34,143 bases of DNA from Frankiales bacterium (lineage in GTDB: Bacteria > Actinomycetota > Actinomycetes > Mycobacteriales > SCTD01), in contig JAOPWV010000044.1 of NCBI GenBank assembly GCA_025965475.1, positions 1 to 34,143 on the forward strand, read 5' to 3'. Numbering within the stretch: the first letter of the stretch is position 1; every line of letters starts with the position of its first letter. The notes under the pieces were generated by a model. The model worked only from the letters and a program-made list of their open reading frames with translations. It did not search any database and was not told the origin of the DNA. This document shows, in pieces, positions 7,936 to 22,674 of this stretch. The position numbers were made by a program, and so were the translations under genes.

Positions 7936-9235
7936 GGTCCCCGACGCCCGCGCCCCGTGGCACCAGTCGCCGCGTGAAGGGCTCGCCCCCGTCCGCGGAC
8001 AGCAGCGGCCCGGTCCAGCTCTCCAGGGACTCGCCGGGCGACACCGCCTTCAGCAGCCCCTCCCACTTGTTGTAGAGCTGAGCCCTGCCCAGCGGCCGCG
8101 TCTCAGCCCCGAGCGGAACGGTCACCAGCTCGGTGTAGGTAGCGGCACCGGCGTCGACCACGACGCGCGCGCCCCAGGAGCGTGGGTACAGGTCGTCGAT
8201 CGGCGCGCCGCCCGCCACGAGCGAGACCGGCACGTCCGGCAGGTCCAGCGCGCGCCAGTACGTCCGGCAGTCGTCGGCACAGCCGCTGACCGCTGCCCGC
8301 GTCACGTACGTGACGCTGCACTTGCGGCCCCCGACCGTCTCGGGCTGCGCCTCCTGGTTCAGGAACCTGCGCAGGGGGGCGGGCACCGCGACCGTGATGC
8401 TCCGTATGTCGCCGGGCTGGAGCCCTGCATGCTCGACCACGCCGCGGGTCGCCTCGGCGACAGCATGCAGCGGACGGGCGCACGGGTAGGGCTTCAGGGC
8501 TGTCGACACGATTGCCGGAGGTCCGGCCGGGGTGAGCGTTGTCGCGTCCAGTGGATAGGCACCGTCGTCGAAGATGCGCAGCGAGCCCACGAGGCCTAGC
8601 GCGGCTTGGCGAGCCGCCTCCAGGCCGAGTCGCGCAGCCGTGCCGGCGGAGGTGTAGTGGCCGTCCGTGATGTCCGGTGGCAGCTGCGCGCATCCGGACG
8701 TGGCCGCGATCGCGACGGCATGCGCGCAGGCCTGCCTGTCGAGTCCCATGAGGTAGCCGGCAGTCACGGCAGACCCGAGCTTGGCGAACAGCGAGCTGGG
8801 CCAGAGCCCCCTCGCGTACATGCCGGGTGCGTCACCCGCCGTCGCGGCGGCCACGGTGGCCTCGTAGCCCGCGACGACGGCGCGCAGGACCTGGTCGACC
8901 GTGCTTCCCAGGCGCAGGCCCAGGTGCACGGCTACCGCGACGCACAGCGCGGGGCAGGTGGCGCTCTCCTCGTGCAGCGCGTCGAACTCGTCGACGTGGA
9001 TGAGCGTGGCGAGCAGGTCCACCGACTCCGGCAGGCTGGGCCCGGTCGGCGAGTCGGCGCGGGCGGCCACCACCATCAGCTCTCCCAGGGGACCGACGGC
9101 TCCGCCGGCGGCGCAGCACACTGCGTCGGCGACGTGAAGCCTTGCCGTGAGCAGCACGTCGGCGGACGCCGACTCTGCGGCATCGAGCGCGTGCTCTACC
9201 AAGGTCGCCGCGGTCCCGGCGAGCGCACCCGTCAC
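7919..9235 (-). CDS. MmgE/PrpD family protein
   Basis: A 438-residue protein of the MmgE/PrpD family (2-methylcitrate dehydratase, aconitate/itaconate-forming decarboxylase and relatives). It shows the all-helical N-terminal lid domain with DAVCCAAGG, HVDEFDALHEES, VVAGYEATVAAA, and the conserved KPYPCARPLHAVAEA stretch near 270-285. The family usually dehydrates or decarboxylates small hydroxy-tricarboxylic acids. I chose GTG at 9235 because its first bases overlap the SDR stop as GTGA, which is a classic coupled start; the open frame runs on upstream only through antisense-looking sequence. No propionate or methylcitrate genes are nearby, so a role in side-chain processing of the aromatic pathway is more likely. 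That is inference. Confidence 0.85.
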   Translation of the reverse strand: MTGALAGTAATLVEHALDAAESASADVLLTARLHVADAVCCAAGGAVGPLGELMVVAARADSPTGPSLPESVDLLATLIHVDEFDALHEESATCPALCVAVAVHLGLRLGSTVDQVLRAVVAGYEATVAAATAGDAPGMYARGLWPSSLFAKLGSAVTAGYLMGLDRQACAHAVAIAATSGCAQLPPDITDGHYTSAGTAARLGLEAARQAALGLVGSLRIFDDGAYPLDATTLTPAGPPAIVSTALKPYPCARPLHAVAEATRGVVEHAGLQPGDIRSITVAVPAPLRRFLNQEAQPETVGGRKCSVTYVTRAAVSGCADDCRTYWRALDLPDVPVSLVAGGAPIDDLYPRSWGARVVVDAGAATYTELVTVPLGAETRPLGRAQLYNKWEGLLKAVSPGESLESWTGPLLSADGGEPFTRRLVPRGAGVGDRDVLV

Positions 9236-10017
9236 AGCCCCGCCACCTGTCCGCCGTCCACGTCGATGCCTGCGCCGATCAGGTACGAGGCACGGTCGGA
9301 GGCCAGGAAGGCAATGACGTCGGCGACCTCCGCGGCTTCGGCTTCGCGGTGCAGCGGGATCTCGGTGAGCAGGTGCTCGCGGGCCTCGGCGAGCGTCATC
9401 CCCTGGGCGGCCGCCCGGGCCTCGTGGTGGCCGCGGAGCCGGGGGCTCGTGACCGCACCCGGGTTGACGGTGTTGAGCGAGACGCCGTCCTTCGCCAGCA
9501 CCCGCGCGAAGCCCTTCGCGAACAGGGAGAGTGCAGCGTTGGAAGCTCCGCCGGGAAGGTGGACATCCATGGGCTGGATCCCGCCCACACCGGAGACGAC
9601 GACGATCCGCCCGTGCCCCTGCTGGCGCATGACCCTGGCGACGCTGAGGACCAGTCGCACGTTGATGAGGAACTTGTTGGTCATCGCGTGCTCGTAGTCG
9701 GCGTCCGTCGCCTCGTACGCCGGGACGCGGCGGGTCGAACCCGCGGCTGACACCAGGACGTCCAGGGAGCCGGCTGTGTCGGCGATGTCCGCCACGACCG
9801 CATCGAGGGCAGCGGCGTCCTCGAGGTCGCAGAACCGTGCCTGCGCCTGCCCCCCTTGGGCCCGCAGGGCGGCGGCGGCGGCTTCGAGTGCCGTCTGGTC
9901 GCGGCCCAGCAGGACGACGCGGGCGCCCTCCTGCGCGAGCCGGCGGCATACGGCAGCTCCGAGCTCGCCGCTCGCCCCCGCGACAAGGGCCACGCGGTCA
10001 GTGAGTCCGAGGTCCAC
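9232..10017 (-). CDS. SDR family oxidoreductase with non-canonical active site
   Basis: A 261-residue short-chain dehydrogenase/reductase. The nucleotide-binding GASGELG motif is at 14-20, the SAAG motif at 90-93, the active-site Ser142 in VVVSGVGG, and the C-terminal YLIGAGIDVDGG is typical. The YxxxK catalytic pair is missing: the segment reads GGASN, so Gly156 stands for Tyr and Asn160 for Lys. GTG start with GGGA eight bases upstream. It overlaps the PrpD gene by 4 bases. It may use an atypical mechanism, or act as a lyase or isomerase; calling it a dehydrogenase would be family inference only. Confidence 0.88.
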   Translation of the reverse strand: MDLGLTDRVALVAGASGELGAAVCRRLAQEGARVVLLGRDQTALEAAAAALRAQGGQAQARFCDLEDAAALDAVVADIADTAGSLDVLVSAAGSTRRVPAYEATDADYEHAMTNKFLINVRLVLSVARVMRQQGHGRIVVVSGVGGIQPMDVHLPGGASNAALSLFAKGFARVLAKDGVSLNTVNPGAVTSPRLRGHHEARAAAQGMTLAEAREHLLTEIPLHREAEAAEVADVIAFLASDRASYLIGAGIDVDGGQVAGL

Positions 10018-10065
10018 GTGCGCGTCCCTTCGGCGTGGCCCGGAACCCGGACTTCCGGTCAGTGG

Positions 10066-10809
10066 TCACAGCGGCACCGCCATGGACAGCTCTGCCGCCG
10101 CGGCGGCCAGCAGTCCCTGCATCTGGTGGAGCTTCTCGTCGTCCACGCGCTGGACGGGGCCGGCGGCGCTGAGCGCGGCGACGACAGCGCCCGCACGGTT
10201 GCGCACCGGCACGCCGATGGCCCGCACGCCTTCGTTTCGCTCCTCCTCGTTGACGGCGAAGCCACGTGCGCGGATCGTCTCCAGCTCCGCCGCCAGCACA
10301 TCTGCGTCGACGATCGTCCGGGCGTTGTAGCGGACGAGGCCGGCCGCGAGCACCGCCTCCTGCAGCTCGCTGTCGCCGTACGCGAGCAGGACCTTGCCCG
10401 CGGCGCTGGCGTGCAGCGAGGTGAGGGGGGAGGGCAAGGTCGCCAGCCGGACCGCCGCGTCGACCGGTTCGCGCCGGTCGAGGTAGAGCAGCGCGGTCCC
10501 TTCGAGCACGCCCAGGTGCACGGTTTCGCCGCACGACACCACGAGCCTGTCCAGAAGCGGGCGCGCCGCGGTGACCAGGCTGTTCTGGCTGGCCGCGAAG
10601 ATTCCGAGCGCGATGATCCTGGTCCCGAACGCGTAGTTCCTGTCCGGGAGCTTGCGGACGAACGCATGCCGCTCGAGCGTGCTGAGGATCCGGTGAACCG
10701 TGGGCTTCGGCAGTCCCGTGGTCGCAGTGATCTCCGCAAGGCTCTGGCTGCCTGCTGCTGCCTCGAGGCATTCGAGTACGGCGATCGCCTTGTCAATGGC
10801 GGTGTCCAA
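10066..10809 (-). CDS. IclR family transcriptional regulator
   Basis: A 247-residue IclR-type regulator. The winged helix-turn-helix occupies about residues 1-70 (SLAEITATTGLPKPTVHRILSTLE), followed by the effector domain with HLGVLEGTALLYLDRREP, SLHASAAGKVLLA and GFAVNEEERNEGVRAIGVPV. I chose the TTG at 10809 because GAGGAGG lies exactly 8 bases before it and it gives the usual start (M)DTAIDKAIAVLE. An ATG at 10833 would add 8 residues but has no ribosome binding site. It follows the extradiol dioxygenase gene in the leftward operon and probably controls both divergent operons through the palindromes between them, responding to a pathway aromatic or acid. Confidence 0.92.
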   Translation of the reverse strand: MDTAIDKAIAVLECLEAAAGSQSLAEITATTGLPKPTVHRILSTLERHAFVRKLPDRNYAFGTRIIALGIFAASQNSLVTAARPLLDRLVVSCGETVHLGVLEGTALLYLDRREPVDAAVRLATLPSPLTSLHASAAGKVLLAYGDSELQEAVLAAGLVRYNARTIVDADVLAAELETIRARGFAVNEEERNEGVRAIGVPVRNRAGAVVAALSAAGPVQRVDDEKLHQMQGLLAAAAAELSMAVPL

Positions 10810-10904
10810 CGTCAGAACCTCCTCACATCGCATCGTGAAAGCCAAGCGGCGAACCTGACCTGCGGGCGCGCAGAGCGCCTCTTCTCGAGCTGGAGCTGGC
10901 CGCG

Positions 10905-11834
10905 TCAGGCCGGTAGCAGCGCCACACCCATGCCGGTGATCCACTCCTCGATCGCCCAGTAGCCCACCGTCTCGGCGGGGGCTGCGCCCACGAAGTTCTT
11001 CGCAGCGATCCAGTTGCGGATCTCTGCCCCGCCGTTGCCGGCTTCCGCGTCCAGGTCCTGGAACTCCTTCGCGAGGACGGCCGGATCGCCGCCCTGCTCG
11101 AGCGCTCGCAGGAAGCGCCGGTCGAACTCGGGGTTGATGCGGGACGGCGCCGCGCGGATGATCTTGCGCCGAGCGTCCTCGTACTGCGCCGTCCCGTGGC
11201 GCCCGCGCAGCCAGGCCTCGACGAGGAAGCGGTCGTCGTCGCTCTCCGGCGCGCGCCAGTCCGGCCACGGCAGCGTGTGCGAGAGGCCGCCGGACGCGAC
11301 CACAGCCACCCGGCAGTCGGCCGGGAAGTCCCGGACGGCGCTGGCCAGCGCTTGGCCGAGCTGGGCGCATCGCTGGACCGAGGGCAGTGGCGGCGCGAAC
11401 AGGTTGATGACGATCGGGATGATCGGGACGGAGGCGCTCGGCCACAGGTATTGCACCGCGTGCGTCAGACCGTGGTCGATCGTCATGTCGATCGAGAACG
11501 CCGCGTCGATGTCCCGCTGCACCAGCCCCTCGAGCAGGTGCCGGGCCAGGGTGGGGTCGGTCTCCAGCCGGCCCTTCGGGGTGCCGCTCTCGCCGGTGCC
11601 GGTCACGTCCCCCACCCCGATCGAGAACGTGGGAAGCAGGTCCAGGAAGAAGCCCCGGAAGTGATTGCTGCCGATGCAGATGATCGCGTCCGGCGCGAGG
11701 CCGACGAGGTAGTCGCGGGCCGTGCCCAGCGCCTGCTTGAACCCGACCGCACTGGCGACGTCGCGGACCCGGTCGAAGTCGGTGTTCATGAGCGTGCTGT
11801 GTGAGGCAGCCACTCCGCCGACGATCGTTGCCAT
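10905..11834 (-). CDS. class III (LigB-type) extradiol ring-cleavage dioxygenase, MhpB-like
   Basis: A 309-residue Fe(II) dioxygenase that lines up along its length with E. coli MhpB (2,3-dihydroxyphenylpropionate 1,2-dioxygenase), recalled from memory. Likely metal and catalytic residues are His12 (ASHSTL), His58 (SNHFRGFF), Asp120-His121 (IDHGL) and His186 (GGLSH). The C-terminus EEWITGMG also matches. It should open a catechol-type ring next to the diol, giving a semialdehyde-type or 2-hydroxy-6-oxo acid. I chose the ATG at 11834, with GGAG 10 bases upstream, rather than one further upstream that overlaps the operator. It is the first gene of the leftward operon; the exact catechol is unknown. 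Confidence 0.92.
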   Translation of the reverse strand: MATIVGGVAASHSTLMNTDFDRVRDVASAVGFKQALGTARDYLVGLAPDAIICIGSNHFRGFFLDLLPTFSIGVGDVTGTGESGTPKGRLETDPTLARHLLEGLVQRDIDAAFSIDMTIDHGLTHAVQYLWPSASVPIIPIVINLFAPPLPSVQRCAQLGQALASAVRDFPADCRVAVVASGGLSHTLPWPDWRAPESDDDRFLVEAWLRGRHGTAQYEDARRKIIRAAPSRINPEFDRRFLRALEQGGDPAVLAKEFQDLDAEAGNGGAEIRNWIAAKNFVGAAPAETVGYWAIEEWITGMGVALLPA

Positions 11835-11868
11835 CGGGGCTCCGTTCCGGTCCAGGCATTCCAACATG

Positions 11869-11882
11869 TGGAACGCGTTCCA
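11869..11882. promoter_or_regulatory. candidate IclR operator, left copy
   Basis: TGGAACGCGTTCCA, a perfect 14-bp palindrome 35 bases upstream of the extradiol dioxygenase ATG. The flanks AACAT and ATGTT extend the symmetry. An identical copy lies at 12,057-12,070. Palindromes of this size and type suit IclR regulators. Confidence 0.7.
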
Positions 11883-12020
11883 TCGATGTTGCACACCTGA
11901 TCATCGATCCCCGTCGGCGTCAAGCACTCGATCGGAGCCCGTTCCGACGTGTCCGCGGCACGCCGCCGACCCGTGCGCGGCTCATCGGAAACGCTTGCGC
12001 AGCACCGTCGGGCGCGCTCC

Positions 12021-12050
12021 TTGACACCCCCGCGACGCCGCTGATAGACA
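12021..12050 (+). promoter_or_regulatory. candidate promoter of the hydratase operon
   Basis: TTGACA at 12,021-12,026 and TAGACA at 12,045-12,050, spaced 18 bases. The right operator starts 6 bases after the -10 box, which fits repression at the start site. Confidence 0.5.
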
Positions 12051-12056
12051 CATATC

Positions 12057-12070
12057 TGGAACGCGTTCCA
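12057..12070. promoter_or_regulatory. candidate IclR operator, right copy
   Basis: A second perfect copy of TGGAACGCGTTCCA, placed just downstream of a -10-like box, so that bound regulator would cover the transcription start. A further half-site TGGAAC follows at 12,076-12,081. Confidence 0.7.
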
Positions 12071-12234
12071 TATTATGGAACGGCCACGAGATCACGCCGC
12101 CCCGCCCCACATGGGGCGGCAACGAAGGCGGCCCCCCTACGACCGAGCTGGGAGTCGCTGGTGCAGCACGCCCCCGTTGCCGTTCCGGACGGGCGCGTCG
12201 ATGTCCGACGGGTCGATGTCCGGCGAGACCACTC

Positions 12235-13053
12235 GTGACCCCCTTGGCCGGCCCGGTGGACCGGGCGGCCCGGCGCCTGTCGAACGCTGCGGCGACGCGT
12301 GCGGCCTGCGCCCCAGTGCGTGACCTTCTCGGCGCCGAGGACGTGGGTGTCGGCTACCAGGTGCAGGAGTTGCTGGTCGCCGAGCGCCTTCGTGCCGGGC
12401 AGACCCGCGTCGGCCGCAAGATCGGCCTGACCAACCCGAAGGTGCAGCATCAGCTGGGCGTGGACCAGCCGGACTTCGGAGTGCTGCTCGACGCCATGGC
12501 CTGGCCCCAGAACCAGCCGGTCGACCTGGACCGCCTGCTGCAGCCGAAGATCGAAGCGGAGATCGCCTTCGTACTCAAGGCCGACCTGGACCATGAAGGC
12601 GTCACCGAGGCGGACGTGCTCGCCGCAACGGACCACGTGCTCGCGGCCCTTGAGATCGTGGACAGCCGCGTCGCGGACTGGGACATCAGCATCGTTGACA
12701 CGGTGGCGGACAACGCCTCCTGCGGCCTGTTCGTCCTCGGAAGCGAACCGGTGGCTCCGGCCAGCCTCGACCTCGCGGCCGTGTCCATGACCCTGCGGCA
12801 GGATGGCGAGCTGGTCTCGAGCGGGACAGGTGCCGACTGCCTCGGGAATCCGGTGACCGCCGTCGCCTGGTTGGCCAACACGGCGCGCGCCTACGGGGCG
12901 CCCCTTCGAGCCGGAGAGGTTGTCCTGTCCGGAGCCCTGGGGCCGATGGTGCCGGTCCGACCCGGCGCGCGATACGACGCCGAGCTGGTCGGCATCGGCA
13001 GCGTCGGCGTCGCGTTCAGCGCCGCCCCGGTGCCGCCGGGAGCGAGCGGATGA
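12235..13053 (+). CDS. 2-oxopent-4-enoate hydratase (MhpD-like)
   Basis: A 272-residue protein of the fumarylacetoacetate-hydrolase-fold hydratases (MhpD/DmpE/XylJ), which add water to 2-oxopent-4-enoate to form 4-hydroxy-2-oxovalerate. Family patterns are [39 protein letters not shown] with the metal-binding Glu pair, EIVDSRV and the late [12 protein letters not shown]. The start codon is probably GTG at 12,235, but ribosome binding sequence is weak and later GTG or TTG codons (for example 12,256) could serve; MhpD itself begins near that point. It is the first gene of the rightward operon and acts directly before the aldolase encoded next. Confidence 0.92.
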
Positions 13054-13174
13054 CGGCAGGGCGCGCCGCGCGCCGGCCGAGCGGTCACCCCGGTGCCCAC
13101 CCAGGCGTACGCATCGTCGCAACGGCCTGCGACCTCGTGGTCGCACAACCCACCGAGCTGACAAGGGAGGCACG

Positions 13175-14248
13175 ATGAGCGAGCGCGAGTCCACCGAAGG
13201 GCCGGCCGCAGGCCCGCGGGTCTACATCCAGGATGTGACCCTTCGCGACGGGATGCACGCCGTGCGTCACCGGTACACCCTGGACGACGTCACCACGATC
13301 GCCGCCGCCCTCGACGCAGCCGGAGTCGACGCGATCGAGATCGCGCACGGGGACGGACTAGCCGGCTCGAGCCTCACGTACGGCCCGGGCGCGCACTCGG
13401 ACGAGGCATGGATCGGTGCCGTCGCCGCTGTCGTGAAGAACGCCCGGCTGACCACCCTGCTGCTGCCGGGGATCGGCACCATCGAGAACCTCGAACGCGC
13501 ACACGACCTGGGCGTCACCTCCGTCCGTGTGGCCACCCACGCGACGGAGGCCGACATCGCCGCGCAGCACATCGCCAAGGCTCGTGAGCTCGGCATGGAC
13601 GTGTCCGGCTTCTTGATGATGAGCCACATGTCCCGCCCAGGCGACCTCGCGGCACAGGCGCTACTGATGGAGTCCTACGGCGCCCACTGCATCTACGTCA
13701 CCGATTCGGGAGGTCGCCTCACGATGGACGGCGTCCGCGATCGGGTACGCGCCTATCGGGACGTGCTGGATCCGGCCACGGAGCTCGGCATCCATGCGCA
13801 CCAGAACCTCTCCCTCGCCGTCGCGAACTCCGTTGTCGCCGTGGAGAACGGCGTCACCCGCGTGGATGCCTCGCTGGCCGGCATGGGCGCAGGTGCGGGC
13901 AACTGCCCGATCGAGCCACTCGTCGCCGTGGCCAACATCCAGGGCTGGCAGCACTCGTGCGACCTGTTCGCACTGCAGGACGCGGCGGACGACCTCGTGC
14001 GCCCGCTGCAGGACCGACCGGTCCAGGTCGACCGGGAGACCCTGACGCTCGGCTACGCGGGCGTGTACTCGAGCTTCCTCCGGCACGCCGAGCGCGCCGC
14101 AGCCGAGTACGACCTGGACACCCGCGACATCCTTGTGGAGGTCGGGCGACGCGGCCTGGTCGGCGGACAGGAAGACATGATCATCGACGTGGCGCTGGAC
14201 CTCGTCGGACGGGGCGGCGCCCGTGGCCGCACGATGCAGAAGGTCTGA
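13175..14248 (+). CDS. 4-hydroxy-2-oxovalerate aldolase (MhpE/BphI-like)
   Basis: A 357-residue class II pyruvate aldolase of the HMG-like TIM-barrel family. The catalytic Arg24-Asp25 and His28 lie in [11 protein letters not shown], and the metal-ligand histidines are in GIHAHQN. The C-terminal part ([17 protein letters not shown]) matches the domain that docks the acetaldehyde dehydrogenase. It splits 4-hydroxy-2-oxovalerate into pyruvate and acetaldehyde and usually channels the aldehyde to its partner enzyme. ATG with GGGAGG upstream. In most clusters the partner dehydrogenase gene is adjacent, whereas here the hydroxylase gene lies between them. Confidence 0.95.
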
Positions 14249-14254
14249 TCGACT

Positions 14255-16057
14255 GTGACTGACGCCCATGCCGACGACACCGAGACGTACGACACCGACG
14301 TCCTGGTCGTCGGAACAGGACCTACTGGCGCCACCGCCGCACTGGCACTGGCCACCTACGGCGTGCGGGTACGGGTAGCCACCAGGTGGAACTGGCTGGC
14401 CAACACCCCCCGCGCGCACATCACGAACCAGCGCGCCCTCGAGGTACTGCGCGACCTCGGCGTCGAAGCCGAGGCCGCATCGGTAGGGACACCCTGGCAC
14501 CTGATCGGCGACATGGTGTTCGCCACCAGCCTGGCCGGCGACGAGATCGCGCGACTGCACACCTGGGGCACGGGCGCCGAGAGGCGGACCGAGTACGAGC
14601 TCGGAAGCCCCTGCCCCCTGCTCGACATCCCGCAGCCGTACATGGAGCCTGTGCTCGTCAAGAACGCGGCAGCGCGCGGCGCCGACATCTCGTTCAACAC
14701 CGAGTACCTGTCGCACGTGCAGGATGCGACCGGGGTCACCTCGACCCTGCAGGACCGGCTCACCGGTCACGAGTACACCGTGCGCAGTCGCTTCCTCGTG
14801 GGCGCCGATGGCGCCCGCTCGCGCATCGCCGAGGAGCTGGGTCTCCCCATCGAAGGGACGATGGGCAGGGCGGGGACCGTCTACACGCAGTTCCGTGCCG
14901 ACCTCGCGCCGTATGTGACGCACCGCCCGAGCATCCTGCACCGCATCCTGCTCCCCAGCTACGCGTTCGGTGAGATCGGGCTGGCGACGCTGCGCGCCAT
15001 CCGGCCCTGGGACCAGTGGATCGCAGGCTGGGGCTACGACATCAACGGGCCCGAACCCGACCTGCGGCCCGAGGCGGTGCTGCCACGGGTGCAGGAGATG
15101 ATCGGCGACCCCTCTGTCGCAGTCGAGATCGAGGACGTCCGCACCTGGCAGGTGAACCAGGCATGGGCGACGCAGTACTCATCCGGGCGTGTCTTCTGCG
15201 GAGGCGACGCCGTCCACCGGCACCCTCCGTCGAGCGGGCTCGGCTCCAACACCTCCATCCAGGACGCGTTCAACCTGGCCTGGAAGCTGGCGTACGTGAT
15301 CAAGGGCTGGGCCGGCCTGCCGCTGCTCGACACCTACTCACCCGAACGCGCGCCGGTGGGCGAGCAGATCGTGGCCCGCGCCAACCAGTCCCGCCGCGAC
15401 TACGCCGGCATCAACGACGTCCTACGCGTCGTCCGGGAGGCGGACTCGGTGGCGGCCGGGCTCGCGAAGCTCACCGAGGCCACCCGGGAGGGCGTCGCCC
15501 TGCGCGAGGCGCTCGTCGAGGCCGTAGCCGTCAAGAACAACGAGTTCAACGCTCAGGGCACCGAGCTCAACCAGCGGTACGCGTCCTGCGCGGTGCTGCC
15601 GGACCCCGACGCGGGTGAGGAGGTCTGGACTCGGGACAAGGGCCTGCACCTCCAGGCGACGACCAGACCAGGAGCGAAGCTGCCGCACGCCTGGCTCGTC
15701 GACGAGTCAGGCCACAAGGTCTCCACCCTGGACGTGACGGGCAAGGGCAAGGTCTGCATCGTGACCGGTATCGCCGGCACTGCCTGGGTGAAAGCCGCTA
15801 CGGAGCTCGACCTGCCGTTCCTGCGGGTCGTCACGGTCGGCGCGGCCGGCGCGCAGGACCTCTACCACCAGTGGCACCGCGCCCGGGAGATGCACGAGGC
15901 CGGTGCGCTCCTCGTGCGGCCGGACGGCTATGTCGCCTGGCGTCACGCACAACCGGTCTGGGACAGCGCGGAGGCCGCCGGTCTTCTGCGCAAGGCAGTC
16001 GACGCCCTTCTCGCCACGCCCGGGGCTCAGGCACCGCCCGGGCAGCTGCCGGACTGA
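14255..16057 (+). CDS. FAD-dependent aromatic hydroxylase (TfdB/MhpA group)
   Basis: A 600-residue class A flavoprotein monooxygenase. The dinucleotide-binding VVGTGPTGATAALALA begins near residue 18, the NAD(P)H-related GADGARSRIAEELG near 185, and the FAD ribityl-binding GGDAVHRHPPSSGLGSN near 312, with a thioredoxin-like C-terminal domain making up the usual length of about 600. The segment HITNQRALEVLRDLGVE is typical of 2,4-dichlorophenol 6-monooxygenase and related phenol hydroxylases. It should hydroxylate a phenolic ring ortho to the OH to give the catechol cleaved by the dioxygenase. GTG start, 6 bases after the aldolase stop. Substrate range is not deducible. Confidence 0.93.
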   Translation: MTDAHADDTETYDTDVLVVGTGPTGATAALALATYGVRVRVATRWNWLANTPRAHITNQRALEVLRDLGVEAEAASVGTPWHLIGDMVFATSLAGDEIARLHTWGTGAERRTEYELGSPCPLLDIPQPYMEPVLVKNAAARGADISFNTEYLSHVQDATGVTSTLQDRLTGHEYTVRSRFLVGADGARSRIAEELGLPIEGTMGRAGTVYTQFRADLAPYVTHRPSILHRILLPSYAFGEIGLATLRAIRPWDQWIAGWGYDINGPEPDLRPEAVLPRVQEMIGDPSVAVEIEDVRTWQVNQAWATQYSSGRVFCGGDAVHRHPPSSGLGSNTSIQDAFNLAWKLAYVIKGWAGLPLLDTYSPERAPVGEQIVARANQSRRDYAGINDVLRVVREADSVAAGLAKLTEATREGVALREALVEAVAVKNNEFNAQGTELNQRYASCAVLPDPDAGEEVWTRDKGLHLQATTRPGAKLPHAWLVDESGHKVSTLDVTGKGKVCIVTGIAGTAWVKAATELDLPFLRVVTVGAAGAQDLYHQWHRAREMHEAGALLVRPDGYVAWRHAQPVWDSAEAAGLLRKAVDALLATPGAQAPPGQLPD

Positions 16058-16147
16058 CAGAACTCGCGCCGTCCGCCGCCTGCGCAGGCGCCGCACCGGT
16101 CCTCGGACGAGGCCGGCACTGATTCACCCACGCGAAGGGAGACCGCT

Positions 16148-17104
16148 GTGACAACCAGCAAGACCAGGGTTGCAGTGATCGGTTCCGGCAACATCGGGAC
16201 CGACTTGATGATCAAGATTCTGCGCATGTCACAGACGCTGGAGATGGCAGCCATGGTCGGCATCGACGCGGCCAGCGATGGCCTGGCACGCGCACGGCGC
16301 ATGCACGTCGCGACCACGGCTGACGGCATCGACGGCCTGTTGAGGATGGACGAGTTCGCCGACGTCCAGGTGGTCTTCGACGCGACCTCCGCGGCGGCCC
16401 ATCGTGAGAACGATGCCAAGCTGGCCGCATCCGGCGTCCGTGTCATCGACCTGACCCCGGCTGCGGTAGGGCCGTTCGTCGTCCCCGCGGTGAACCTGGA
16501 CAGCGTCGCCGACGCCAGGAACGTCAACATGGTGACCTGCGGGGGTCAGGCGACGATCCCGATCGTCGCAGCTGTCTCGCGGGTGACCCCGGTGCGGTAC
16601 GGCGAGATCGTCGCGTCGATCGCGTCCAGGTCTGCCGGACCGGGCACGCGAGCCAACATCGACGAGTTCACCGAGACCACGGCCAGGGCTATCGAACGGG
16701 TCGGCGGCGCCGCGCGGGGCAAGGCAATCATCATCCTGAACCCCGCCGAACCCCCGATGATCATGCGCGACACGGTGACGGTGCTCGCAGACACGGCGGA
16801 CCAGGACGCGATCGTCGACTCCGTCCACCAGATGGTGCGGGACGTGTCGGCGTACGTGCCGGGCTACCGGTTGAAGCAGGAAGTCCAGTTCGCAGAGGTC
16901 CCCGACGGCGACCCACGGCGCCAGCTGGTCTCGGCGCGCGACGCCGGCCACGGGTTGTCGCACGTCACCGTGCTGCTCGAGGTCGAAGGTGCCGCCCATT
17001 ACCTTCCTGCCTACGCGGGCAACCTCGACATCATGACCTCAGCTGCGCTGCGCGTTGGTGAAGCCCTCGCAGCCGCTCCCGCGATGACGGGTGCAGCTCG
17101 GTGA
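16148..17104 (+). CDS. acetaldehyde dehydrogenase, acylating (MhpF/BphJ-like)
   Basis: A 318-residue enzyme that converts acetaldehyde, NAD+ and CoA into acetyl-CoA. The Rossmann motif GSGNIGTD is at 12-19 and the catalytic Cys131 lies in [11 protein letters not shown], with [15 protein letters not shown] and [15 protein letters not shown] also matching the family. GTG start with GAAGGGAG upstream. It is the last gene of the rightward operon and partners the aldolase two genes before it. The downstream end borders the 17.4 kb tRNA-half repeat. Confidence 0.95.
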
Positions 17105-18790: not shown

Positions 18791-19972
18791 GTGAACATCG
18801 TCCACGCGATCCTGGAGGCGCTGCGGGCAGCGGGTGAGATGGGCTGGATCATCCTGTGGCCACTCGTGCTCGGGTTCGCGCTGTCCGGCGCGATCCAGGC
18901 GGCCGCCCGGCCGGAGGAGATCAGCCGACTGCTCCCGGACGACTCGCCGCGCAGTCTCGCGCGCGCGTCCCTGCTGGGCATCGTGTCCTCGTCGTGTTCG
19001 TACGCCGCGGTCGCCATCGCACGGGCCCTGGTCCGCAAGGGTGCGAACTTCACCGCGGCGATGGCGTTCCAGGTGGCCGCCACCAACCTGGTCGTCGAGT
19101 TGGGCATCGTGACCGCGCTGCTGCTCAGCTGGCAGTTCACGCTCGCGGAGTTCGTCGGCGGCCCGCTGATGATCCTGCTGGTCGCGCTGATGTTCCGCTG
19201 GTGGGTCTCCGACAGGATCGTGGCGGCCGCCCGGGAGCAGGCCGACCGTGGCCTTGCGGGGTCGATGGAAGGGCACGCCGCGATGGACATGAGCGTGCAC
19301 GGCGACCAGCCGCTCCTGCGCCGGCTGCTGTCCCCCACGGGGGCGACGGCGACCGCGAGGTACTTCGTCATGGACGCGGTCTCCGTCTGGCGCGACATCG
19401 TCGGCGGGCTGCTCATCGCCGGGGCGTTCGCCGCATGGGTGCCCGACACGTGGCTGCAGATCTTCTTCCTGGCCGACCACCCGCTCGCCGCACAGCTGTG
19501 GGGACCGCTCATCGGCCCGCTGGTCGCCGTCGTGTCGTTCGTCTGCTCGGTAGGGAACATCCCGCTCGCCGGCGTCCTGTGGAACGGCGGCATCAGTTTC
19601 GGCGGGGTGGTCAGCTTCATCTTCGCCGACCTGATCATCCTCCCGATCCTGCTCATCTACCGGAAGTACTACGGGACGGCGATGGCGCTGCGCATCTTCG
19701 TCTTCTTCTACGCGGCGATGGCCGGCGCCGGTTACGTCGTCGAGCTGGTGTTCCGGCCGCTGGGCCTCATCCCCACCGGACGGCACGCCAAGGTCACCGA
19801 CATCGGCATCACGTGGAACTACACGTCGTGGCTCAATATCGTGTTCCTGGCCGTCGCGGCGGCGCTGGTCGTACGTTTCGCGCGCACCGGCGGCCTGCCG
19901 ATGCTGAAGGCGATGGGCGGCGCGCCCCCAGCCGCGCAGGGCCTGCCGGGGGTGCCGCCTGAGGCTTCCTGA
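18791..19972 (+). CDS. permease of the DUF318/ArsP_1 (PF03773) type
   Basis: A 393-residue membrane protein with about 8-10 hydrophobic segments. It carries two inverted half-repeats, each with a Cys in a small-residue loop: SSSCSYAAVAIARALVRKGA (near 73-92) and SFVCSVGNIPLAGVLWNGG (near 250-268). These patterns belong to the PF03773 permease family, some members of which export organic arsenicals or other metal(loid) compounds. A His-rich loop (EGHAAMDMSVHGDQ) sits mid-protein and could bind metal. GTG start with AAAGGAG upstream. No arsenic operon genes are nearby, so the substrate is open. Confidence 0.88.
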   Translation: MNIVHAILEALRAAGEMGWIILWPLVLGFALSGAIQAAARPEEISRLLPDDSPRSLARASLLGIVSSSCSYAAVAIARALVRKGANFTAAMAFQVAATNLVVELGIVTALLLSWQFTLAEFVGGPLMILLVALMFRWWVSDRIVAAAREQADRGLAGSMEGHAAMDMSVHGDQPLLRRLLSPTGATATARYFVMDAVSVWRDIVGGLLIAGAFAAWVPDTWLQIFFLADHPLAAQLWGPLIGPLVAVVSFVCSVGNIPLAGVLWNGGISFGGVVSFIFADLIILPILLIYRKYYGTAMALRIFVFFYAAMAGAGYVVELVFRPLGLIPTGRHAKVTDIGITWNYTSWLNIVFLAVAAALVVRFARTGGLPMLKAMGGAPPAAQGLPGVPPEAS

Positions 19973-19999: not shown

Positions 20000-21070
20000 T
20001 CAGACGAGCACGAACAGCGATGCGCCGAAGACCAGGTAGAACGCAGCGGACGCGGCGAGCCGGCCGGCGGTGAGCGCTTTGCGGCTCATCAGGACCAGCA
20101 GGTAGACGATGACGGCCATCGTGACCAGGCCGGAGACGAGCAGCGGCCCGTCGAAGCGCCACGGGGTGAAGAAGATGCCGAGCGCCGACGGGACCGTCGC
20201 CTGGATCATCATGGCCCCACTGATGTTGGCCAGCGCCAGCTGCGTCTTGCCCTGGCGGATCCAGATGATCGCGTTCATCACCTCGGGCAGCTCGGTGGCG
20301 ATCGGGGACAGCAGCAGGGCAACGACAGCTGCCGGTAGCCCCAGCGCCGGCCCGGCCCACTCGAGCTGGGCGACGAACAGCTGCGACGCCGCGAAGATGA
20401 CAGCCAGCGTGGCCAGCACCTGCGCGATGACCGCCGCGGACGAGGGAACAGCCCGCGTCGGCTGCAGCTTCAGCGGCTCGAGGTCGTCACCGCTGGCGTG
20501 GTCGCCGGTGCCGCGCATCTCCCGGTAGAAGTACACGCCGTACGCGGCCAGGAAGGCGAGCCCGAGGAGCGGCTTGAACGCGAACGCGACCAGGCCGAGA
20601 GCGACCTTCACGATGAAGATCGCGAGGAACCACCGCTGATCACGGGCCAGCCGGTCGATGTCGACACCGTCGAACACATCGTCGCCCGCGGCGGGCCGGC
20701 CGGCCGACTCCCCACCCGCCCATGTGCCTGCTGCCACGGCCGTTTCAGCCAGGCGCGCCTGGGCCTGCCGCCGGCGGCGGGTGAACAACAGGAAGCCGGA
20801 GACGCCGTACGCGATGGTCGCGAGGGCCAGCGGCCCTCCCATGGCGGCGCCCACACCGATGTCCTTGCTGTGCTCGCCACTGCCCATGGTGACGGCAACG
20901 AGGGTGACCACGCTCTCCGGCAGCGCCGTCCCGACAGCCGCAAGGATGGTGCCGACCGCGACCGCGCCGACCTTGAGCTGGACGCCGAGCCACTCGACCG
21001 CGTTGATGAACCACTCGCAGGCCAGGTAGATGGCCACCGCGCAGCCGAGCAGCAAGATGATGTGAAGCAC
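20000..21070 (-). CDS. CaCA family cation antiporter (sodium/calcium exchanger-like)
   Basis: A 356-residue membrane protein of the Ca2+:cation antiporter family. The two signature alpha repeats are present: GTALPESVVTLVAV near residue 49 and SPIATELPEVMNAIIW in the second half, each with the ion-binding Glu. About ten membrane segments are split by a hydrophilic loop. I chose GTG at 21,070 with GAGAGGA five bases upstream; the frame is open further into the leader RNA. The leader holds a yybP-ykoY element, so expression probably follows cytoplasmic Mn2+ and the protein may export Mn2+ and/or Ca2+. It converges with the PF03773 permease. Confidence 0.93.
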   Translation of the reverse strand: MLHIILLLGCAVAIYLACEWFINAVEWLGVQLKVGAVAVGTILAAVGTALPESVVTLVAVTMGSGEHSKDIGVGAAMGGPLALATIAYGVSGFLLFTRRRRQAQARLAETAVAAGTWAGGESAGRPAAGDDVFDGVDIDRLARDQRWFLAIFIVKVALGLVAFAFKPLLGLAFLAAYGVYFYREMRGTGDHASGDDLEPLKLQPTRAVPSSAAVIAQVLATLAVIFAASQLFVAQLEWAGPALGLPAAVVALLLSPIATELPEVMNAIIWIRQGKTQLALANISGAMMIQATVPSALGIFFTPWRFDGPLLVSGLVTMAVIVYLLVLMSRKALTAGRLAASAAFYLVFGASLFVLV

Positions 21071-21145
21071 GAGGTTCCTCTCCCGCGCCGCGGGACCAGG
21101 ACCACCTCTGAGGCGACCCCGACCCACGGCAGACGACACGTCTGG

Positions 21146-21260
21146 CCTTGGGTCGAAGGTCTCGCTACCCGCACCAGCGCGGGCCCGGGCGCCGGGAACC
21201 TCACGGTTCCAGCATGTCGACGGTCCGGCGGGGAGCTACTCCCCTTCAACCGTCCCAAGG
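21146..21260 (-). promoter_or_regulatory. yybP-ykoY (manganese) riboswitch
   Basis: On the minus strand the closing stem is CCTTGGG (21,260-21,254) with CCCAAGG (21,152-21,146). The two conserved internal loop strands are GGGGAGTAGC (21,244-21,235) and GGTAGCGAGACCTT (21,169-21,156), matching the recalled yybP-ykoY consensus. Between them lie GTCGACATGCTGG and GC-rich hairpins. It ends 75 bases before the antiporter start, leaving room for an expression platform that could hide the ribosome binding site. This class senses Mn2+. Confidence 0.88.
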
Positions 21261-21339: not shown

Positions 21340-22674
21340 TCAGCGCAGCAACGGGCAGTCGCGGCTGGCGAACGCGGCAAGTCCGTCGACCGGCGTGAAC
21401 CGACCCGTGCTCCGGTCGACGGCCCAGGTGAACTGCTGCGTCTCCCCCGTCACGGTCTGCTGTTCGGCGTGGATGAAGAAGGTGTCCGGGGTGTCCGTAT
21501 CGGCGAACGACACCACGGTGCCGTCCGTCGGCGGTTCTATCGGCGCGTGGAAGTCGCACTCCGTCCCGGCCCGATCGAGGATGGCGGCGGCCTGCTGTTC
21601 GGCTGCGTCCGGTGCCGTCGGGACCGACTCGGGCGCCGCGCTGGCGGCAGGCGCCGCGGGCTGTTTCGACGACCCCCGCGGGCTGGGCGGCCGGGCCGAG
21701 TACTGCCGCGGGCTGGGCGGCTGCGTGGACCGCAGCCGCGGACTGGCCGGTTGTGCCGGCAACTCCGGCGGGCTGGTCGAGGGTGCGCCCGCCGTCGCCG
21801 TCGCCGGCGGGCCCGCAACGCTGCGCCGGGAGCGCGGCGGCGTGGTCGGGGCCGTCGAGGCTGCGGTGTAGGCATCATCGGCTGTGCCACTGGTGCCGGC
21901 CGGCCGCGTGAAGCGCGCTGCGGTGGCCGGGTCGACCAGCGTGAAGGTGGTGATGACCGCGGCTGCCGGCTGGATCACGGTCAGGCCACCCGCGTCGAAC
22001 GTCGGCCACCTCGGGCCGTAGTAGCTCGGCCGTGTGTAGCTGAACGCGGGTGTCAGCGGGTTGCCGCAGTAGCACTTGGTGACCGGAGCACCGTGCCGGT
22101 CCACGAGAACCGCGGTTCCGGCCTGCAGAACAGCCGGCACGGTGGTCGGGCTCCCCAGCGCGTACCCGTGGTTGGTGACGTAGGTGTCGGTGCGCAGCAG
22201 CGCGGGGGTGAGCCCCGAGACAAAGCGGGGTACGTCGCCACGCGCGATCCCGATGACGTTCGCCCAGGCCTCCCCGGCGTCGGGATGCTGCTGGAGGAAC
22301 GTCACCATCCGCGAGCGGTCGCAGACAGCGCCCTGCGGGACGCCGCCGTACAGCCCAGGGGTGTCACCGCTGAACGCACCCGCGCTCCTACGCGGTGGCG
22401 TGGCCTTGGGCGCGTCCGTGCCGACGGGCGGCATGAACGGATCGGCGCCGCGGCTGGAGACGGGTTCGCGTGCCACCCGCACCGTCGCGGTGGGAGCCGG
22501 ATGACTGCCCCGCGAGGCAAGCACCACACCGCCGAGCGCTCCGACGACGGCAGCGATCGCGACGATGCCGAGCAACGGTCCCTTCGACAGGTCACGGCCC
22601 GGATCGGCCCGCCGCCGGAGGCCGGTCGGCGCGTCGCCCGGAGGCTGCGGCCCGTGTGGGCCACGTGTCGGCAT
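21340..22674 (-). CDS. DUF6777-like membrane-anchored protein
   Basis: A 444-residue protein with a Pro-rich cytoplasmic N-terminus, one membrane helix (GPLLGIVAIAAVVGALGGVVLAS, about 32-54) and a large outer part. The region GLYGGVPQGAVCDRSRMVTFL through LRTDTYVTNHGYALGSPTTVPAVLQAGTAVLVD to KCYCGNPL matches actinobacterial proteins labelled DUF6777, as I recall them. A Ser/Pro-rich stretch made of 10-residue repeats (SPRxxSxxPP) follows at about 298-335, then a C-terminal domain with Cys residues. Function is unknown; it looks like a cell-surface or envelope protein. Confidence 0.8.
   Translation of the reverse strand: MPTRGPHGPQPPGDAPTGLRRRADPGRDLSKGPLLGIVAIAAVVGALGGVVLASRGSHPAPTATVRVAREPVSSRGADPFMPPVGTDAPKATPPRRSAGAFSGDTPGLYGGVPQGAVCDRSRMVTFLQQHPDAGEAWANVIGIARGDVPRFVSGLTPALLRTDTYVTNHGYALGSPTTVPAVLQAGTAVLVDRHGAPVTKCYCGNPLTPAFSYTRPSYYGPRWPTFDAGGLTVIQPAAAVITTFTLVDPATAARFTRPAGTSGTADDAYTAASTAPTTPPRSRRSVAGPPATATAGAPSTSPPELPAQPASPRLRSTQPPSPRQYSARPPSPRGSSKQPAAPAASAAPESVPTAPDAAEQQAAAILDRAGTECDFHAPIEPPTDGTVVSFADTDTPDTFFIHAEQQTVTGETQQFTWAVDRSTGRFTPVDGLAAFASRDCPLLR
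21677..21781 (-). repeat. imperfect 30-bp tandem repeats within the DUF6777 gene
   Basis: Three full units and part of a fourth, each 30 bases and starting CGCGGGCTGGGCGG or a close variant on the plus strand (near 21,677, 21,707, 21,737 and 21,767). They encode the Ser/Pro linker repeats of the overlapping gene. Confidence 0.75.

Follow-up and report, generated by a model that had tools for sequence, protein, structure and literature searches.

A variant yybP-ykoY-type riboswitch precedes a probable Mn2+ exporter of the CaCA superfamily in Actinobacteria

We analyzed a 34,143-nt stretch of DNA from a Frankiales bacterium (contig JAOPWV010000044.1), which we will call the window. It contains a transporter gene on the minus strand, with GTG start at 21070, and a structured RNA that precedes this gene on the same strand:

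20000-21070, minus strand: CaCA-superfamily transporter gene (356 amino acids, GTG start; PF01699)
21249-21153, minus strand: yybP-ykoY-type (Mn2+) aptamer in a three-way-junction form, with P1.1, P1.2, P3.1, P3.2, and P4
21236-21243, minus strand: loop L1 region, GGGAGUAG; by eye, the adenosine at 21240 fits the A-minor adenosine
21215-21220, minus strand: loop L3, UCGACA, with the equivalent of the Mn2+-contacting adenosine (A48 of X. oryzae) at 21215

The transporter gene is convergent with an ArsP_1 permease gene (18791-19972, plus strand), 27 bases away, and a gene for a DUF6777 protein (21340-22674, minus strand) lies upstream of the RNA on the same strand. Elsewhere in the window, a run of genes at about 9232-17104 resembles, by eye, a meta-cleavage aromatic degradation cluster (short-chain dehydrogenase, hydratase, aldolase, FAD hydroxylase, and aldehyde dehydrogenase), and a tRNA-Ser (TGA) is at the contig end (1-88, minus strand).

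An earlier note on this DNA had reported both conserved loop strands, and both are present: the L1 strand GGGGAGUA and UCGACA in L3. The role of the A-minor adenosine in L1 and the string that holds the Mn2+-contacting adenosine (ACA48UACU) are described in PMC6754395. Aligning ACAUGCU from the window with this string by eye places the adenosine at 21215.

The same note had named a low covariance score as evidence against a riboswitch, and the score is indeed low. With Rfam release 15, the yybP-ykoY model (RF00080) has no match anywhere in the window at its gathering cut-off of 45 bits. In E-value mode, it matches 21260-21167 at 21.6 bits (E 0.00054 for a 501-base stretch and E 0.037 for the whole window), and the 3' part of this match is wrongly placed. 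A search of the whole genome with RF00080 finds nothing at E<=0.001. When tested against the curated score, the aptamer falls short, so we consider it to be a variant that would function as yybP-ykoY switches do, not a member of the Rfam family. Taken on their own, these values would suit a chance resemblance within an ordinary GC-rich leader. We rejected that reading, which we consider exceedingly improbable, because it is refuted by conservation, covariation, and gene context.

To begin with conservation, a protein search of 298 genomes of the order found matches at E<=0.001 in 42, of which about 20 are strong. Among 20 loci from the order (L001-L020, including the window), 18 carry GAAGGGGAGTAG (one mismatch allowed) at a distance of 177 to 737 nt upstream of the matched stretch; in L013 and L015, the aptamer was not found in the stretch tested. 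Scanning the protein alignment A1 over named genomes gave 80 loci from Streptomyces, Actinomadura, Actinoallomurus, Blastococcus, Modestobacter, Pseudonocardia, and other genera. The full set of motifs is found within 700 nt upstream of the orthologous gene in 58 of these 80 actinobacterial loci, and the other 22 have no aptamer in the stretch tested. Two Streptomyces loci (L054 and L098, upstream of 3001) have kept the gene and have what seem, by eye, to be decayed aptamers without the 5' L1 strand. In L033, an aptamer lies farther away, at about 790 nt upstream, and is followed by a separate small ORF.

The helices covary. In alignment A3 (19 aptamers, an unfitted MAFFT seed), 98.2% of cells are paired, and 36 cells have changed on both sides, versus 9.4 when shuffled, which supports P1.1, P1.2, P3.1, P3.2, and P4. 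P2 is missing from the actinobacterial aptamers. The conserved part of P1.1 is the inner UUGAAGG/CCUUCGA, which ends 82 nt before the GTG.

We also built a covariance model (R1) from 19 actinobacterial aptamers. The window's copy is among the seeds, so its R1 score of 91.9 bits (at 21249-21153) is high by construction. An R1 alignment of 92 sources, most of which are not seeds, has 94.4% of cells paired, with changes on both sides at 22 of 29 pairs and in 431 cells (versus 121.5 after shuffling and no more than 65 in slid versions); these figures lean towards the model because the alignment was fitted to it. The L1 strands (5' GGGAGUA and 3' GAGAC) are invariant in all 92 matches, including the window, as is the Mn2+-discriminating adenosine of L3 (92/92).

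At E<=0.001, R1 matches 215 of the 298 genomes of the order, whereas RF00080 matches 3, none of them above its cut-off. This comparison is like for like (one sample, searched each time with the stricter filters of Infernal), but each count is a minimum, and most of the sequences behind R1 came from that order. Across the phylum, R1 matched 41 of 296 genomes. Among 20 named loci, 19 of which have the full aptamer, RF00080 recovers none at gathering; in E-value mode, it finds 4 of 18 loci, at 19.5 to 30.2 bits. Its blind spot is not total, as Rfam recognizes copies in Corynebacterium (PMC3890552, PMC3890534). Because RF00080 misses nearly all of the copies in the order, a low score from it does not count against the aptamer. 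The comparative evidence outweighs that score and confirms, at the level of sequence, that the region holds a real yybP-ykoY-type aptamer. Three lines of this support are independent of the window's score as an R1 seed: siting before orthologous genes, covariation across 92 mostly non-seed matches, and the gene context of the non-seed matches. The proposal that a yybP-ykoY switch lies in front of a CaCA antiporter is thus borne out.

To describe the gene context, we examined, at 107 distinct loci, whichever ORF downstream of the aptamer looked most like a membrane protein. These were the best R1 matches plus hand-picked regions (L145, with an R1 E-value of 0.156, was left out), so this non-random choice favors strong matches. 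The ORFs comprised 82 GDT1 (UPF0016), 17 Na_Ca_ex, 3 TerC, 1 VIT1, 1 MntP, and 1 P-type ATPase; L182, which is among the 107 loci but not in these counts, has TerC downstream. With the six weaker matches below included and 13 seed loci left out, a known or probable metal-efflux family is downstream in 98 of 100 non-seed matches. Six weaker R1 matches precede a P-type ATPase, a Na_Ca_ex protein, three TerC proteins, and, in L190, a 288-aa ORF that matches no family. In L162, the aptamer is followed by a 269-aa ORF with no Pfam match, and a shorter ORF nearby resembles Rce1-like proteins. It is possible that L162 and L190 are new Mn2+-regulated genes, or they may be false positives.

The source genome carries three copies of the aptamer, before CaCA (in the window), GDT1, and TerC genes. 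The two copies outside the window are:

G000:C166:56596-56700, minus strand: second copy (L143/L146), before a GDT1 (UPF0016) gene; R1 71.9 bits
G000:C149:900-993, minus strand: third copy (L144/L147), before a TerC gene on a 3.6-kb contig; R1 59.1 bits

Streptomyces bluensis has the aptamer twice in one locus (L096:5148-5960), before a CaCA gene and before a nearby GDT1 gene. At L127, L150, L151, L187, and L027-L029, which include genomes of family f8, the aptamer lies before genes of another, distantly related CaCA subfamily; where these proteins match the window protein, identity is about 30%.

The window protein belongs to the CaCA superfamily: it matches PF01699 in two stretches, or repeats (E 4.7e-20; 72.5 bits versus a cut-off of 24.9). 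No other PF01699 gene was found in the genome; both matches fall within this one. The model for Na+/Ca2+ exchangers of the NCX type, TIGR00367, gives 76.5 bits, which is far below the NCBIfam cut-off of 179.65. An AlphaFold2 model (pLDDT 86.4, pTM 0.83) is similar to NCX_Mj (5jdq: Z 27.8, rmsd 3.2, 289 aligned; 3V5U: Z 27.7) and to CAX (4kpp: Z 26.5), both of which share the CaCA fold of two alpha repeats with a Glu pair.

The window protein differs from NCX_Mj at the Na+ sites. The side-chain ligands for Na+ in NCX_Mj, which we take to be S51, S77, N81, S210, S236, and D240, align with A49, G79, L83, E260, A286, and Q290, so all six positions differ (the C-terminal alignment is weak, with E about 1). 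Four of the six replacements (A49, G79, E260, and Q290) are invariant in alignments A1 and A4, and several relatives have Ser at position 286. At the divalent site, the Glu and Thr ligands (T50, E54, T209, and E213 in NCX_Mj) are retained. Classical Na+/Ca2+ exchange by this protein is unlikely.

Given the predicted Mn2+-sensing RNA switch in front of its gene, the transporter probably pumps out Mn2+. The closest studied case is BP3410 of Bordetella pertussis, a CaCA protein whose gene has a yybP-ykoY switch and is induced by Mn2+ but not by Ca2+; its export of Mn2+ is supported by ICP-MS (PMC8546581). Another shared feature is that each locus has one promoter, with a -10 box, immediately upstream. 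We liken the two proteins at the superfamily level only, by description, and Mn2+ export by the window protein is a prediction. The RNAs differ in that Rfam finds the one from B. pertussis (E 8.5e-15 in PMC8546581) and misses the one in the window. The outputs may differ as well: in the absence of Mn2+, the BP3410 transcript reportedly terminates early, whereas for the window we propose a translational platform (see below).

The switch might instead sense Mn2+ while the CaCA protein handles Ca2+ too, or mainly, which would amount to joint control of the two ions. This would fit with membership in PF01699 and with the retention of both Glu ligands of the divalent site, and a review describes a switch in S. 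pneumoniae that regulates Ca2+ efflux via a Mn2+/Ca2+ transporter (PMC9495176). On the other hand, the Na+-site ligands are replaced (four of them invariantly), the remaining families found downstream of this RNA are linked to Mn2+, and the expression of BP3410 did not respond to Ca2+ (PMC8546581). We consider joint control to be unlikely. The earlier note had offered both Mn2+ export and joint Mn2+/Ca2+ handling; the Mn2+ switch class and Mn2+ export are supported by homology, by covariation, and by the metal-efflux genes after the non-seed matches, while our analysis found no evidence for joint handling.

The regulatory elements around the aptamer are:

21262-21257, minus strand: -10 box TACCTT; the inferred transcript start is at about 21251-21250
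21161-21115, minus strand: anti-P1 hairpin, in which the 3' strand of P1.1 (21161-21150) pairs with 21125-21115, which excludes P1.1; from the minimum free energy fold of the leader
21101-21076, minus strand: predicted hairpin that sequesters the ribosome-binding site AGAGGA (21081-21076)

The promoter box is conserved: in 53 of 55 leaders, TANNNT lies 7-13 nt upstream of GAAGGGG, compared to a background of 0.08 leaders per offset further upstream. (L033 and L096 were left out of this count and of the count of T-rich stretches in 74 leaders, below.) The position of the box also bears on the closing stem that had been proposed from the window sequence, CCTTGGG/CCCAAGG, 75 nt before the GTG. 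This outer extension of P1 coincides in part with the -10 box, and only 4 of the 55 leaders, including the window, have at least 7 consecutive pairs there, so we rejected it as part of the RNA. Given the overlap and a start near 21250, its 5' strand is probably not transcribed and is mostly promoter.

For alignment A2 and for folding of the ribosome-binding site, we reduced 57 non-redundant leaders to 53 by dropping L018, L019, L033, and L096. In these 53 leaders, the anti-P1 helix joins the 3' strand of P1.1 to a strand about 25-40 nt downstream, with 92.4% of cells paired. Four pairs have changes on both sides; as 18 of 500 shuffles reach this number, the covariation is moderate. In the window, the probability that the Shine-Dalgarno sequence is unpaired rises from 0.18 in the free ensemble to 0.91 if P1.1 is enforced. 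In L004, L006, and L012, which are from the same family, it rises from 0.42, 0.28, and 0.24 to 0.81, 0.77, and 0.97, respectively. We rejected the idea that closure of P1.1 opens the ribosome-binding site in all relatives: across the 53 leaders, opening went up in 24, down in 9, and was unchanged in 20. Also, P1.1 is practically absent from the free ensembles, so the model requires ligand and co-transcriptional folding.

The same aptamer and ligand could instead control transcription, with the anti-P1 hairpin ending transcription without Mn2+ and P1.1 closure preventing this. The switch of L. lactis works in this way, with P1.1 competing against an overlapping terminator (PMC11087558), and among the actinobacterial leaders it is the anti-P1 helix, not the opening of the ribosome-binding site, that is conserved. 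Furthermore, in 4 of 74 leaders (L046, L048, L060, and L071, all from Actinoallomurus), the anti-P1 hairpin is followed by a T-rich stretch with at least 5 T in 8, similar to an intrinsic terminator, which suggests that the output of the switch may differ by lineage. But a canonical intrinsic terminator was rejected for the window, where the 16 nt after the hairpin have at most 2 T in any 8 and no run longer than 1. In another actinobacterium, Mycobacterium tuberculosis, intrinsic terminators are scarce and translational platforms dominate, according to the authors of PMC12810186. Transcriptional output at this locus seems rather doubtful to us, if slightly less so than joint control of Mn2+ and Ca2+. 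For the window and its close relatives, we propose an ON switch that acts on translation; because of the mixed picture over the 53 leaders and the four T-rich leaders, we confine the proposal to these and leave the output open elsewhere.

Our preferred explanation, to which we assign a probability of roughly 0.78, is that an actinobacterial variant of the yybP-ykoY Mn2+ riboswitch is a genetic ON switch for a Mn2+ exporter of the CaCA family. The computed evidence for this model is the promoter box at the edge of the aptamer, the covarying helices, the two alternative partners for the 3' strand of P1.1, and the metal-efflux gene context. Without Mn2+, the anti-P1 hairpin would form, the arm at 21101-21090 would sequester the Shine-Dalgarno sequence, and translation would be off; Rho-dependent termination might add to the off state. 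Mn2+ would bind between L1 and L3, where the invariant adenosine would hold it, and would stabilize P1.1. Once P1.1 closes, the freed strand (21129-21110) would pair with the anti-Shine-Dalgarno arm, which would open the ribosome-binding site. The transporter would then be made and would export Mn2+, probably driven by protons or another ion and not by the three-Na+ mechanism of NCX.

Compared to the yybP-ykoY switches of RF00080 (L. lactis and X. oryzae), the variant shares L1, L3, the discriminating adenosine, and P1.1 as the switch helix, a role that is established for L. lactis (PMC11087558). It differs in the missing P2 (three-way instead of four-way junction), a GC-rich and compact P4, and the platform. 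The leaders of Corynebacterium glutamicum are likewise actinobacterial and belong to RF00080, and one was observed by RNAseq before terC; their Rfam scores of 43.7 to 49.9 bits (PMC3890552) are far above those of the copies described here. The Mbox at pe20 of M. tuberculosis is another actinobacterial metal riboswitch with anti-Shine-Dalgarno and anti-anti-Shine-Dalgarno strands, but it has a different aptamer and is an OFF switch for Mg2+ (PMC12810186).

A yybP-ykoY switch before a CaCA-type Mn2+ exporter is known in kind, as it was shown in B. pertussis (PMC8546581). In the open-access literature that we searched, we found no paper that joins calcium cation antiporters, manganese, and actinobacteria. 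As far as that literature goes, the following look new: the variant found in Actinobacteria, its CaCA targets, and the near-failure of RF00080 to detect it.

More broadly, we think it fairly likely, though less so than the reading of this locus, that Actinobacteria contain a widespread, GC-rich variant of the Mn2+ riboswitch that Rfam misses almost entirely. It would govern a Mn2+-efflux regulon (GDT1, TerC, MntP, VIT1, and P-type ATPase) along with at least two subfamilies of CaCA proteins, which would be a recurring and overlooked class of bacterial Mn2+ exporters, at least one of them without the Na+ sites of NCX. If so, then Mn2+ efflux in most genomes of the order would be regulated by an RNA that goes unnoticed in routine annotation, and many genes that are annotated as calcium/sodium antiporters would be Mn2+ exporters. 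With a corrected covariance model, Mn2+ regulons could be mapped across the Actinobacteria at once.
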